Both the position numbers and the translations under genes were made by a program. Below the pieces are notes generated by a model, which did no database searches, had not been told where the DNA came from, and saw only the letters and a list, made by a program, of their open reading frames with translations. Positions 58,922 through 61,928 of a stretch of DNA of 64,000 bases are shown in pieces. The first letter of the stretch is position 1; every line of letters starts with the position of its first letter. The DNA comes from Bacilli bacterium (GTDB lineage Bacteria; Bacillota_I; Bacilli_A; RFN20; CAG-826): assembly GCA_022653695.1 (NCBI GenBank), contig JALCSW010000002.1, positions 124,001 through 188,000 of the forward strand, in the 5' to 3' direction.

Positions 58922-58934
58922 GGGCTCTTGAGCG

Positions 58935-58961
58935 AAGGCCGGTTTTTGCCGGCCTTTTTTT
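58935..58961 (+). terminator. intrinsic terminator
   Basis: AAGGCCGG-TTTTTG-CCGGCCTTTTTTT. Confidence 0.9.
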
Positions 58962-59171: not shown

Positions 59172-59203
59172 CCAATAAAAACGGAAGGGCGACTGTATTG
59201 ATT
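59172..59203 (+). promoter_or_regulatory. candidate ECF-sigma promoter, copy 1
   Basis: CCAATAAAAACGGAAGGGCGACTGTATTGATT, shared with 60761-60792. Confidence 0.6.
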
Positions 59204-59740
59204 ATGGTGGACCAAGAAAGGCTCAGCCAACTCGCGAAAGAACTGAAGGGCGGCGATTTGTCGCGCTTCGAGGAATTTTACGAATCCACCAAACGGATCA
59301 TCCTCGCGAACATCTATGGCTACGTGGGGCAAAAGGAGACGGCGGAGGATCTAGTTCAGGAAACGTACGTGAATTTCCTGAAAACGCTCCCCAAATTCGA
59401 TCCCGACAAACCCGCCATCGGCTACCTTCTCACGATTTCCCGGAACCTGAGCCTCAACTACCTCAAGGGTTCCTCCCGCATCCGCGGGTTCAAGGAACGC
59501 GAGGAGGAAAGCATCTCCCAAAACGACCGTTACCGTTACGACGAAGACGACCTTCTTCAAAAGATGCGGCGAATCCTCAAACCCAGAGAGTTTGAGATCG
59601 TCTACCTCAAAGTCGTGGAGGATTATTCCCACCGCGAGATCGCCACGCTGCTGAAACGGCCCCTGGGAACGGTCCTGTGGGCCTATAACAACGCGATCAA
59701 AAAGCTTCGGAAAGGACTGGAAAAAGACTATGGACGATAA
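59204..59740 (+). CDS. ECF-type RNA polymerase sigma factor
   Basis: FYESTKRIILANIYGYVGQKETAEDLVQETYVNFLKTLPKFDP...LKPREFEIVYLKVVEDYSHREIATLLKRPLGTVLWAYNNAIKKLRKGL. Confidence 0.92.
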   Translation: MVDQERLSQLAKELKGGDLSRFEEFYESTKRIILANIYGYVGQKETAEDLVQETYVNFLKTLPKFDPDKPAIGYLLTISRNLSLNYLKGSSRIRGFKEREEESISQNDRYRYDEDDLLQKMRRILKPREFEIVYLKVVEDYSHREIATLLKRPLGTVLWAYNNAIKKLRKGLEKDYGR

Positions 59741-60767
59741 AATGCGTTCCGACATCCGAAAAGCCTTCGCTTCCCTCAAAACGGAAACCACCGCCGAAAC
59801 GGTTTTGGCGTCCTTTCGCCAGGAGCAAGCCCTTGAAGGGGCGCGGAAGGAAAAACCCGCGCGCCATCCGTTTCGTTTCGCTTTCGGGGGATTGGCCGCG
59901 GCCGTCGCGGTCGTCGGCCTTTCCCTCGGGCTTTATTTCGGGATCGGCCAAAGCGAGTCCTACGCCCCCGTCACGCTGGAAAACGGCGAAGAGCAGGTCG
60001 CCTTCGAACTCCTGACCGGAGCTTCGTTCCTCGATGGGGGGGAGGCGGAAGCGCCTTCGCGGGCCTTTTTGGAGGGGCTCCGCGAGAACCCTTTTAGTGG
60101 GAACCTTAGGCGGGCCTCTTCTTTAAGCGAGGAGGAGTTCGGCGACATCGTCGACCATTACCACGAGAATTATTGGACCTACTCGAGCCTTCTTAGCGAA
60201 GGGTTGGAGGTCTCTTTCGACTTGGAAAGCGGTTCCTTCGAAGGCGTTTTCGAGGATCGATACAGCCACAAAATGACGCTCGGGGGGTCGCGCGCCTTCT
60301 ATTATGATGCCAGCGTCGGCGAAGGGGGCTCTTACGCCGGCGAGCTTCATGAGGGGGCGCAATGCCATAAGGTCCTCTTCACCGTCGGCGGGGACGCGAA
60401 AGGCGCGGACGTGGAAATGAGGATTTACGAAAGCGGCGAGAGCGACGATTATCTTGAAATCGAGTACGGGACCGCCCGCCACGAGACGGCTTACCGCTTC
60501 ACCTCCTTCGCCGGAGGGGAGACGGAGAAAACCGTCGAGTTCCGCGTCCTTGAAAGGAAACGCTCCTATAAGTTGGAACTCAGCGTCGAGGAAGGCGCCT
60601 TCGCCTGCCAATACGGCGTCAGATTGTCCGAGAAAGGGAAAGATTTCCAGATCGATTACGATTACATGGGCGAACTTCAGGGCGTCATCTTCTTCTACGC
60701 GCACGACGAGGTCGTCACCTACGTTGAGCGGAACGCCCGCTACGAAAGCGAAAAGAATATCCAATAA
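59730..60767 (+). CDS. probable membrane anti-sigma factor with large extracytoplasmic domain
   Basis: Overlaps the sigma gene by 11 nt; about 48-aa cytoplasmic N-terminus, one TM (FAFGGLAAAVAVVGLSLGLYFGIG), long C-terminal domain. Confidence 0.75.
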   Translation: MDDKMRSDIRKAFASLKTETTAETVLASFRQEQALEGARKEKPARHPFRFAFGGLAAAVAVVGLSLGLYFGIGQSESYAPVTLENGEEQVAFELLTGASFLDGGEAEAPSRAFLEGLRENPFSGNLRRASSLSEEEFGDIVDHYHENYWTYSSLLSEGLEVSFDLESGSFEGVFEDRYSHKMTLGGSRAFYYDASVGEGGSYAGELHEGAQCHKVLFTVGGDAKGADVEMRIYESGESDDYLEIEYGTARHETAYRFTSFAGGETEKTVEFRVLERKRSYKLELSVEEGAFACQYGVRLSEKGKDFQIDYDYMGELQGVIFFYAHDEVVTYVERNARYESEKNIQ

Positions 60768-60792
60768 AAACCGAACGGGCCTTGTATTCATT
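60761..60792 (+). promoter_or_regulatory. candidate ECF-sigma promoter, copy 2
   Basis: CCAATAAAAACCGAACGGGCCTTGTATTCATT, same length as copy 1. Confidence 0.6.
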
Positions 60793-60825
60793 GGTGTAAG
60801 CGCCAAAAGGCGCGGAGGAAACAAT

Positions 60826-61884
60826 ATGAAAAAGACGCTATGGTTTGGGGGCTTGGCCCTCGCCGCCGGAGTCGGGCTGGCCGCCGGTTGCTCCCTCTCG
60901 GGCATCGGCTCGGACGGGGCGATAGGAGAAGAGGGGGAAACCGCTTTGGCCGCGGAATCCCTCGCCACATTCGGCCTCGTCGACTATGCCTATCCGAGCG
61001 GCCTCAATCCCGTGAAGGCGGCCTTGCAGAACGAAGTCGCCTCGCTAAGCGAGGATCGCCTCGCCGATGTCAGGGCCCTGCTCGGACAGATGGATTCCAT
61101 CATGGCCAACTACACCGGCATTTCGACCCAAACGATCGAATCGGCCTACGAGGAGTTCCCCAATGGGCTCGAGGTCACCTACACCGATGCCTTCGGGGAG
61201 TCCTCTTCCTACGAGCTCTTCTATAAGGAACTCGTTAAAGGCGACGATGACATCACCCCGACGGAAGACCCAACGGAAGAAGCTTCCCTTTCCCCGAGCG
61301 GGGAGTACGCGTATAGCCACGAATACGAGTGGAACCGCCAGAACGGAAACGGCGAGGGAAGCGGATCGAAAAACGGAAACGGCCGCTACCACTACCCCAG
61401 CGAATGGGGAAAGAACGGCTCGAAAGTCAGTTTCGCTTACCTAGGCGGGATTCTCGTCGACGGGGAGGATACCTACGACTTCCACGCGACGCAAATCGAG
61501 CACATCCGTAAGGAACGGACGAAGACGCACGTCAACTTCAAACTCTATAACGACTCCGGCTTCTACGTCACCGCCAACCAAATCCTGATGGAGGACGACG
61601 AGGAAAGCCTCAGCCGCATCGGCTACGCGGTCTTCGATAACGGCGAATGCCTCACTTCCTACCATCTGAGCGTCGTCACAAACGGCGAGGATGAAGGCCG
61701 AATCGACCTCAGCCTCAACGGCGTCACCTTCCATTTGCAAACCGAAACCGTCGACGGGACGACCTACATCCGCGTCCGTTACGATGACGGGGATGAAAGC
61801 GGAACCCTCCTCTTCGAAAAAGTCCTCGTCACGGATGAGGAAAGCGGGGAGACGACAGTGACATACGAACTGGTCGACGAATAA
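60826..61884 (+). CDS. lipoprotein associated with the ECF sigma/anti-sigma pair
   Basis: MKKTLWFGGLALAAGVGLAAGCSLSG lipobox; SD GGAGGAAACA. Confidence 0.85.
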   Translation: MKKTLWFGGLALAAGVGLAAGCSLSGIGSDGAIGEEGETALAAESLATFGLVDYAYPSGLNPVKAALQNEVASLSEDRLADVRALLGQMDSIMANYTGISTQTIESAYEEFPNGLEVTYTDAFGESSSYELFYKELVKGDDDITPTEDPTEEASLSPSGEYAYSHEYEWNRQNGNGEGSGSKNGNGRYHYPSEWGKNGSKVSFAYLGGILVDGEDTYDFHATQIEHIRKERTKTHVNFKLYNDSGFYVTANQILMEDDEESLSRIGYAVFDNGECLTSYHLSVVTNGEDEGRIDLSLNGVTFHLQTETVDGTTYIRVRYDDGDESGTLLFEKVLVTDEESGETTVTYELVDE

Positions 61885-61901
61885 AGGCCCCCAGTTTAAA
61901 G

Positions 61902-61927
61902 AAAAGCCCCATTCGTTTGGGGTTTTT
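61902..61927. terminator. bidirectional intrinsic terminator
   Basis: AAAAGCCCCA-TTCGT-TTGGGGTTTTT. Confidence 0.8.
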
Positions 61928-61928
61928 C

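Follow-up and report, generated by a model that had tools for sequence, protein, structure and literature searches.

ECF sigma factors of uncultured gut Bacilli are mostly without a known signal or regulon. The window analysed here, a 64,000-nucleotide stretch of contig JALCSW010000002.1 from a Bacilli bacterium, carries a cassette for such a sigma factor, a putative anti-sigma factor and a lipoprotein, with a 32-nt block that stands upstream of the first gene and recurs upstream of the third. This locus raises the question of what the sigma factor controls, and why a lipoprotein gene with its own copy of the block belongs to the cassette. We consider it probable that the three genes form an autoregulated ECF circuit with two promoters, in which the induced lipoprotein is a copy of the sensor and binds the inducing agent. 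The cassette itself, the dual promoter across relatives, the paralogy of lipoprotein and sensor, and the lack of further sites in the genome are supported by computation. The features of this three-gene, plus-strand cassette are as follows:

58934-58957, plus strand: intrinsic terminator 5′ of the cassette (10-pair stem, then a T run)
59172-59203, plus strand: predicted promoter copy 1, of the sigma gene (-35 CCAATAA at 59172-59178, 15-nt spacer, -10 TGTATT at 59194-59199)
59204-59740, plus strand: ECF sigma factor, 178 aa (Pfam and NCBIfam matches)
59730-60767, plus strand: putative anti-sigma factor, 345 aa (position, topology and charge)
60761-60792, plus strand: predicted promoter copy 2, of the lipoprotein gene (-35 CCAATAA at 60761-60767, -10 TGTATT at 60783-60788)
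60800-60813, plus strand: small leader hairpin GCGCC-AAAA-GGCGC (RNA fold -9.8 kcal/mol, weak z of -2.04)
60814-60818, plus strand: Shine-Dalgarno GGAGG of the lipoprotein gene (sequence)
60826-61884, plus strand: lipoprotein, 352 aa, with lipobox LAAGC and Cys22 (lipobox, charge, and paralogy with the anti-sigma ectodomain)
61901-61928, plus strand: intrinsic terminator 3′ of the cassette (11-pair stem)

A preliminary description made from the sequence had bounded the cassette by terminators, both of which were found, and the two 32-nt blocks that it quoted are present exactly as given. The stop codon of the anti-sigma gene sits inside the -35 heptamer of copy 2. The leader hairpin, directly 5′ of the lipoprotein GGAGG, could be a stabiliser of the mRNA end or a chance structure.

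The sigma protein matched Pfam Sigma70_r2 (2e-13) and r4_2 (4.7e-07) above the curated cut-offs, with sigma2 and sigma4 as its only domains, and also exceeded the cut-off of the NCBIfam sigma70-ECF superfamily model (TIGR02937); its small size fits ECF (group IV) sigma factors. As noted in the preliminary description, only 4 nt separate the TGTATT of copy 1 from the sigma ATG, and there is no usable Shine-Dalgarno sequence, the sole similar string near the start (AAGG) being too far 5′ of the ATG for a normal one. The ATG lies 4-6 nt past the -10 box in the window and several relatives, and 10-25 nt past it in most relatives. Judged by this geometry, the sigma mRNA could plausibly be leaderless in the window and in a minority of its relatives; this is no conserved rule. 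The lipoprotein gene has a 37-nt leader, with its GGAGG at a spacing common to other lipoprotein genes of the genome.

The second gene encodes a protein with a cytoplasmic part of about 49 residues, one transmembrane segment (residues 50-68) and a 277-residue ectodomain of net charge -30. Searches against Pfam and NCBIfam returned no family match for this protein, including its cytoplasmic part of about 50 residues. Orthologues keep the same layout, being encoded directly 3′ of the sigma gene and consisting of a cytoplasmic N-terminus, one transmembrane segment and an ectodomain; from this synteny and topology we infer that the membrane protein is an anti-sigma factor. In one relative (L075, G120:C151), the anti-sigma frame is split into 223 aa and 66 aa with both promoters and the lipoprotein intact, reflecting either a frameshift or an assembly error. 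With regard to a release of sigma by proteolysis, a homologue of site-2 protease is present; PrsW was looked for and not found.

The third gene product is, as judged from sequence and profile comparisons, a paralogue of the anti-sigma ectodomain that lacks the sigma-binding and transmembrane parts. Using hhalign, profiles of 20 anti-sigmas and 19 lipoproteins aligned collinearly over 269 columns with a probability of 99.2% and a score of 146, compared to 33.5 for the reversed lipoprotein profile and at most 14 for ten column-shuffled profiles; a second pair of alignments gave a probability of 99.5%. The neighbouring pair in a Clostridia MAG (L101) was 44% identical over 317 aa by BLASTP (E = 2e-63). 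An HMM built from the lipoprotein alone picked up the adjacent anti-sigma genes in many genomes (e.g., 2e-25), and some anti-sigmas fit this HMM very well (2e-51 in L282). The preliminary description had suggested comparing the two outer domains, and had not itself seen their homology; its statement that they match no known family holds for Pfam and NCBIfam.

Both domains are strongly acidic. The mature lipoprotein of the window has a net charge of -43; it is the most acidic of the 24 candidate lipoproteins encoded in 464 kb of its genome. The range in relatives is -21 to -52 for the ectodomain and -24 to -65 for the lipoprotein, one truncated protein aside. In two Clostridia relatives (L101 and L102) the anti-sigmas end in long C-terminal Asp runs and are even more acidic; the end of the L101 lipoprotein is also Asp-rich, and shorter. 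A lipobox Cys was present in every complete orthologue examined. The AlphaFold models were built with homologues from the genome search left out. That of the lipoprotein had a mean pLDDT of 61, with N-terminal helices followed by a better C-terminal part of long strands (about 80), and that of the ectodomain was unusable (mean pLDDT 44). Foldseek against the PDB returned nothing below E = 0.08. Given the poor models and the lack of a matching PDB fold, no ligand site is suggested. A likeness to the VtrA/VtrC fold was non-significant (Foldseek E 0.18, prob 0.33) and was rejected, as were weak PDB and Pfam matches (8z3i, 1xou, Ribophorin and others) that look like signal-peptide, composition or chance matches.

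By HMM search, the lipoprotein family occurs in 98 of the 245 genomes of the order and in 29 of its 54 genera. Named relatives with homologues include Candidatus Onthovivens merdipullorum, an Acholeplasmataceae MAG and MAGs labelled Bacilli or Clostridia. Lipoprotein genes that stand alone, with neither a sigma/anti-sigma neighbour nor the promoter element, were seen at L278, L279, L280, L285 and L287, in other families of the order.

Of the known arrangements, the closest is sigmaV (CsfV)-RsiV-LbpA of Clostridioides difficile. Encoded in the csfV operon, LbpA is orthologous to RsiV and lacks the sigma-binding domain; it is membrane-bound, binds lysozyme and gives low-level resistance (PMC9044953). 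Both systems have an ECF sigma factor, a single-pass anti-sigma factor and a copy of the outer domain without the sigma-binding part. Unlike in C. difficile, the sensor copy here is a lipoprotein with a sigma-type promoter of its own, and the cassette contains no peptidoglycan-modifying enzyme. What the window shares with LbpA is thus the presence of a predicted sigma-controlled ectodomain paralogue, devoid of a sigma-binding domain and provided with its own promoter copy. No RsiV-type Pfam domain was detected at E values up to 0.05 in 20 anti-sigmas and 20 lipoproteins, and the PDB profile search matched no RsiV structure; on these searches, an assignment to the RsiV/LbpA family was rejected. 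Since the window proteins fail this family test by sequence, the likeness to LbpA concerns the way of working, membership is unsupported, and the scavenger role is an analogy.

Other systems resemble the cassette in part. RsgI/sigma-I systems, whose anti-sigma factors carry extracellular sensing modules, likewise relate the sensor module to the induced products, but their sigma factor is SigI and the one here is of ECF type. Neither the anti-sigma nor the lipoprotein of the window matched RsgI_M (PF23750), and an assignment to the RsgI family was rejected on profile searches; the domain was found in the output lipoproteins of L104 (E = 9e-27) and L227 (E = 4e-20) only. L104:5001-7746, from Acholeplasmataceae bacterium UBA5769, shares the arrangement of sigma and anti-sigma genes and has CCAATAA promoter elements 5′ of both the sigma gene and the third gene, and there the RsgI_M lipoprotein, with a long charged helical-looking tail, replaces the ectodomain paralogue. 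In Streptomyces coelicolor, sigE-cseA also places a lipoprotein gene beside that of an ECF sigma factor, and this lipoprotein is thought to modulate signalling (PMC6767563). Unlike the present cassette, however, sigE, which has no anti-sigma factor, is controlled by a two-component system, and sigmaE does not target the sigE promoter, whereas the sigma factor here is predicted to drive itself; no paralogy of sensor and output is described for sigE-cseA.

In the circuit that we propose, an envelope signal would act on the ectodomain of the single-pass anti-sigma factor and free the sigma factor, plausibly by regulated proteolysis; the anti-sigma activity and this mode of activation are both presumed. 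The freed sigma factor would read copy 1, giving positive feedback on sigma and anti-sigma, and copy 2, at the end of the anti-sigma gene, giving a separate and well-translated lipoprotein output. By analogy with C. difficile LbpA/RsiV, the lipoprotein would then bind and scavenge the inducing agent at the cell surface, which would protect the cell and damp the signal. The inducer may be an envelope agent that is perhaps cationic, as the strong acidity of the domains suggests. The different third gene of L104 and the stand-alone lipoprotein copies speak against this circuit as a general scheme. Because the output duplicates the sensor, a ligand of the easily purified lipoprotein would be a strong candidate for the signal.

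Autoregulated ECF sigma factors that come with an anti-sigma factor and an induced binder resembling a receptor are a known kind of circuit. Judged against the databases searched, what appears to be new is the family of the receptor, the variant -35 element, the promoter that the receptor copy has to itself, and the spread across the order; full-text literature searches found no description of such a circuit. The idea of an induced receptor decoy, known from RsiV/LbpA, would hereby be extended to a new protein family, across the order and into Clostridia.

The homology of sensor and output could also mean that the two proteins bind each other. The lipoprotein would then dock on the anti-sigma ectodomain through the shared fold and stabilise or cap it, serving as a shut-off device or as an obligate sensing partner. 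Homology extends over the full exported length of the two proteins, which face one compartment, hetero-oligomers are common among paralogous domains, and feedback of the lipoprotein on the anti-sigma was proposed in the preliminary description. However, both surfaces are strongly negative, which makes direct pairing less likely unless a cationic ligand or a metal takes part, and the output lipoprotein of L104 is unrelated to the L104 anti-sigma ectodomain. RseB-RseA and VtrC-VtrA offer a comparison for such docking, but neither pair is known to show homology between sensor and output. We regard docking, the main alternative, as unlikely, though deserving of weight.

A less probable explanation, to which we give little credence, is that the lipoprotein serves the envelope as a structural component or an enzyme, and resembles the ectodomain only because both bind the same envelope ligand, for instance a polymer or a metal. 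BlaR1 with beta-lactamase and RsgI with cellulosomal modules are sensor-effector pairs that could serve as models. A domain shared by sensor and output is known from RsgI systems, in which the anti-sigma factors are reported to detect substrates and to regulate the genes of the cellulosome (PMC12203970, PMC4711584), and the stand-alone lipoprotein copies in related families would also suit an envelope component. Against this, the lipoprotein matched no family in Pfam or NCBIfam, searches revealed neither a catalytic motif nor an enzyme family, and across its alignment only Met1, the lipobox Cys and a single Gly are invariant.

Allowing up to 3 mismatches, the 32-nt block was found in 2 copies only within the window (0 expected from 100 shuffles) and in the same 2 copies only within the 1.29-Mb assembly, which is estimated to be 79% complete. 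The genome-wide motif search that the preliminary description had put forward likewise returned the two cassette copies as the only correctly spaced sites. Looser matches in this genome have a short spacer of 13-14 nt and fall mostly within reading frames, and for these reasons look like chance. The sole other sigma homologue found in the genome (G000:C1:373274-373792, L097) is 28% identical; a CCAACAA-N15-AGTTAATA string occurs about 136 nt upstream of it, and the second gene there encodes a long protein of a different type.

The family search covered 146 genomes, with sigma homologues in 78, and the sigma profile used on genome contigs came from a 5-row alignment. The element recurs in relatives as CCAA(T/C)AA-N15-(C/T)GTNTT, 5′ of the sigma gene and again 5′ of the lipoprotein gene. 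Among 43 deduplicated sigma loci with a lipoprotein downstream, copy 1 was present in 36, copy 2 in 34 and both in 32; the chance expectation is about 1 match per place, and the reverse strand gives a background of about 0.01 per 135-nt stretch. In the aligned sites (19 and 18 for the two places), CCAATAA is almost invariant, the spacer is essentially fixed at 15 nt with an unconserved sequence, and the -10 element is CGTNTTTAT, of which GT, TT and A are invariant. The preliminary description had seen conserved ends around a variable middle; the ends hold, as CCAATAA and TGTATT are kept, but the rest of the block is spacer in relatives, including AAAACNGAANGG, which is alike in both window copies and is not kept elsewhere. 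In a second subgroup, both copies combine CCAACAA with TGTTAAT or CGTTAAT. The nearest relative of the window (G013, sigma 53% identical) has GGTATT and TGTATT as its -10 boxes, compared to TGTATT twice in the window. In other families of the order, L282 has AGTATTAAT and L283 has TGTATTA at both sites, and the element also reaches the Clostridia relative L101. Paired -10 boxes within a genome were alike at 7.1 of 8 positions vs 5.7 after shuffling (0 of 20,000 shuffles), and the spacer showed a weaker effect in the same test (p = 0.002), both uncorrected for phylogeny.

The hallmarks of ECF promoters are AAC at -35 and CGT at -10 (PMC8103513). Most members of the family have the CGT core at -10 and the window has TGT; at -35, AAC is found in one subgroup and AAT in the window and most members. 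Measured by these hallmarks, the -10 element is nothing out of the ordinary, and a -35 element with AAT is unusual. As in generic ECF operons with class I anti-sigma factors, the sigma factor would transcribe its own operon, from a promoter that in most members has a CGT core at -10. The cassette differs from those operons in its -35 element (CCAATAA/CCAACAA, with AAT in most members, instead of the usual AAC-centred one), in having a sensor paralogue as its conserved output, and in a predicted regulon that consists of the cassette alone.

The suggestion that the blocks are chance or recent local repeats, or ordinary housekeeping promoters, could draw on the alike spacers of the two window copies, which might reflect a recent duplication, but it is contradicted by the phylogenetic footprint and is highly improbable, as placement and bipartite layout are kept in dozens of genomes with varying spacers, the genome holds no further copy, the -35 CCAAYAA differs from the vegetative TTGACA, ECF hallmarks (PMC8103513) are seen in the CGT core at -10 and, for some relatives, in AAC at -35, and no vegetative-type promoter was predicted on the cassette strand. 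The presence of the element before both genes in 32 of 43 cassettes instead gives good support to the view, already taken in the preliminary description, that a two-part promoter is read by the sigma factor, which would drive its own gene and, separately, the lipoprotein gene. Autoregulation is indicated, by sequence only, by the bipartite ECF-type element before the sigma gene in 36 of 43 cassettes. That both motif copies behave as real promoters is thus a well-supported prediction, and the motif, whose absence from relatives would have spoken against it, is present across several families and in the Clostridia relative.

In most of the cassette-bearing relatives, matches to the exact pattern are chiefly the two sites of the cassette, indicating that the conserved output is the cassette itself; many of the looser matches in relatives are also intragenic. 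For the window's genome, the regulon is predicted to comprise nothing beyond the cassette, and can here be read from the DNA as two promoters that both lie inside it. The set of sigma factor, anti-sigma factor and promoters is compact and offers an unusual -35 element. More broadly, and with less confidence than for the circuit itself, we tentatively suggest that gut Bacilli may harbour an order-wide, undescribed class of ECF circuits, with a soluble lipoprotein copy of the sensor domain as sole conserved output, acting as a receptor-scavenger for a probably cationic agent from host or competitors; this class would be marked by a new acidic, beta-rich receptor fold, the unusual CCAAYAA -35 element and, in some members, leaderless sigma mRNAs.

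Extra copies of the element were seen in a few relatives. In L227:2525-2552 (G020:C8), CCAATAA-N15-CGTATTTATAGTG lies just 5′ of the RsgI_M lipoprotein gene; from this site, the gene is predicted to be a likely third target of sigma there. In three genomes of one genus (L216:2729-2756, L217:3154-3181 and L218:2604-2631), the element is equivalently placed 5′ of a gene for a membrane protein that we take to be CvpA-like from its sequence, and this gene is a possible additional target there.
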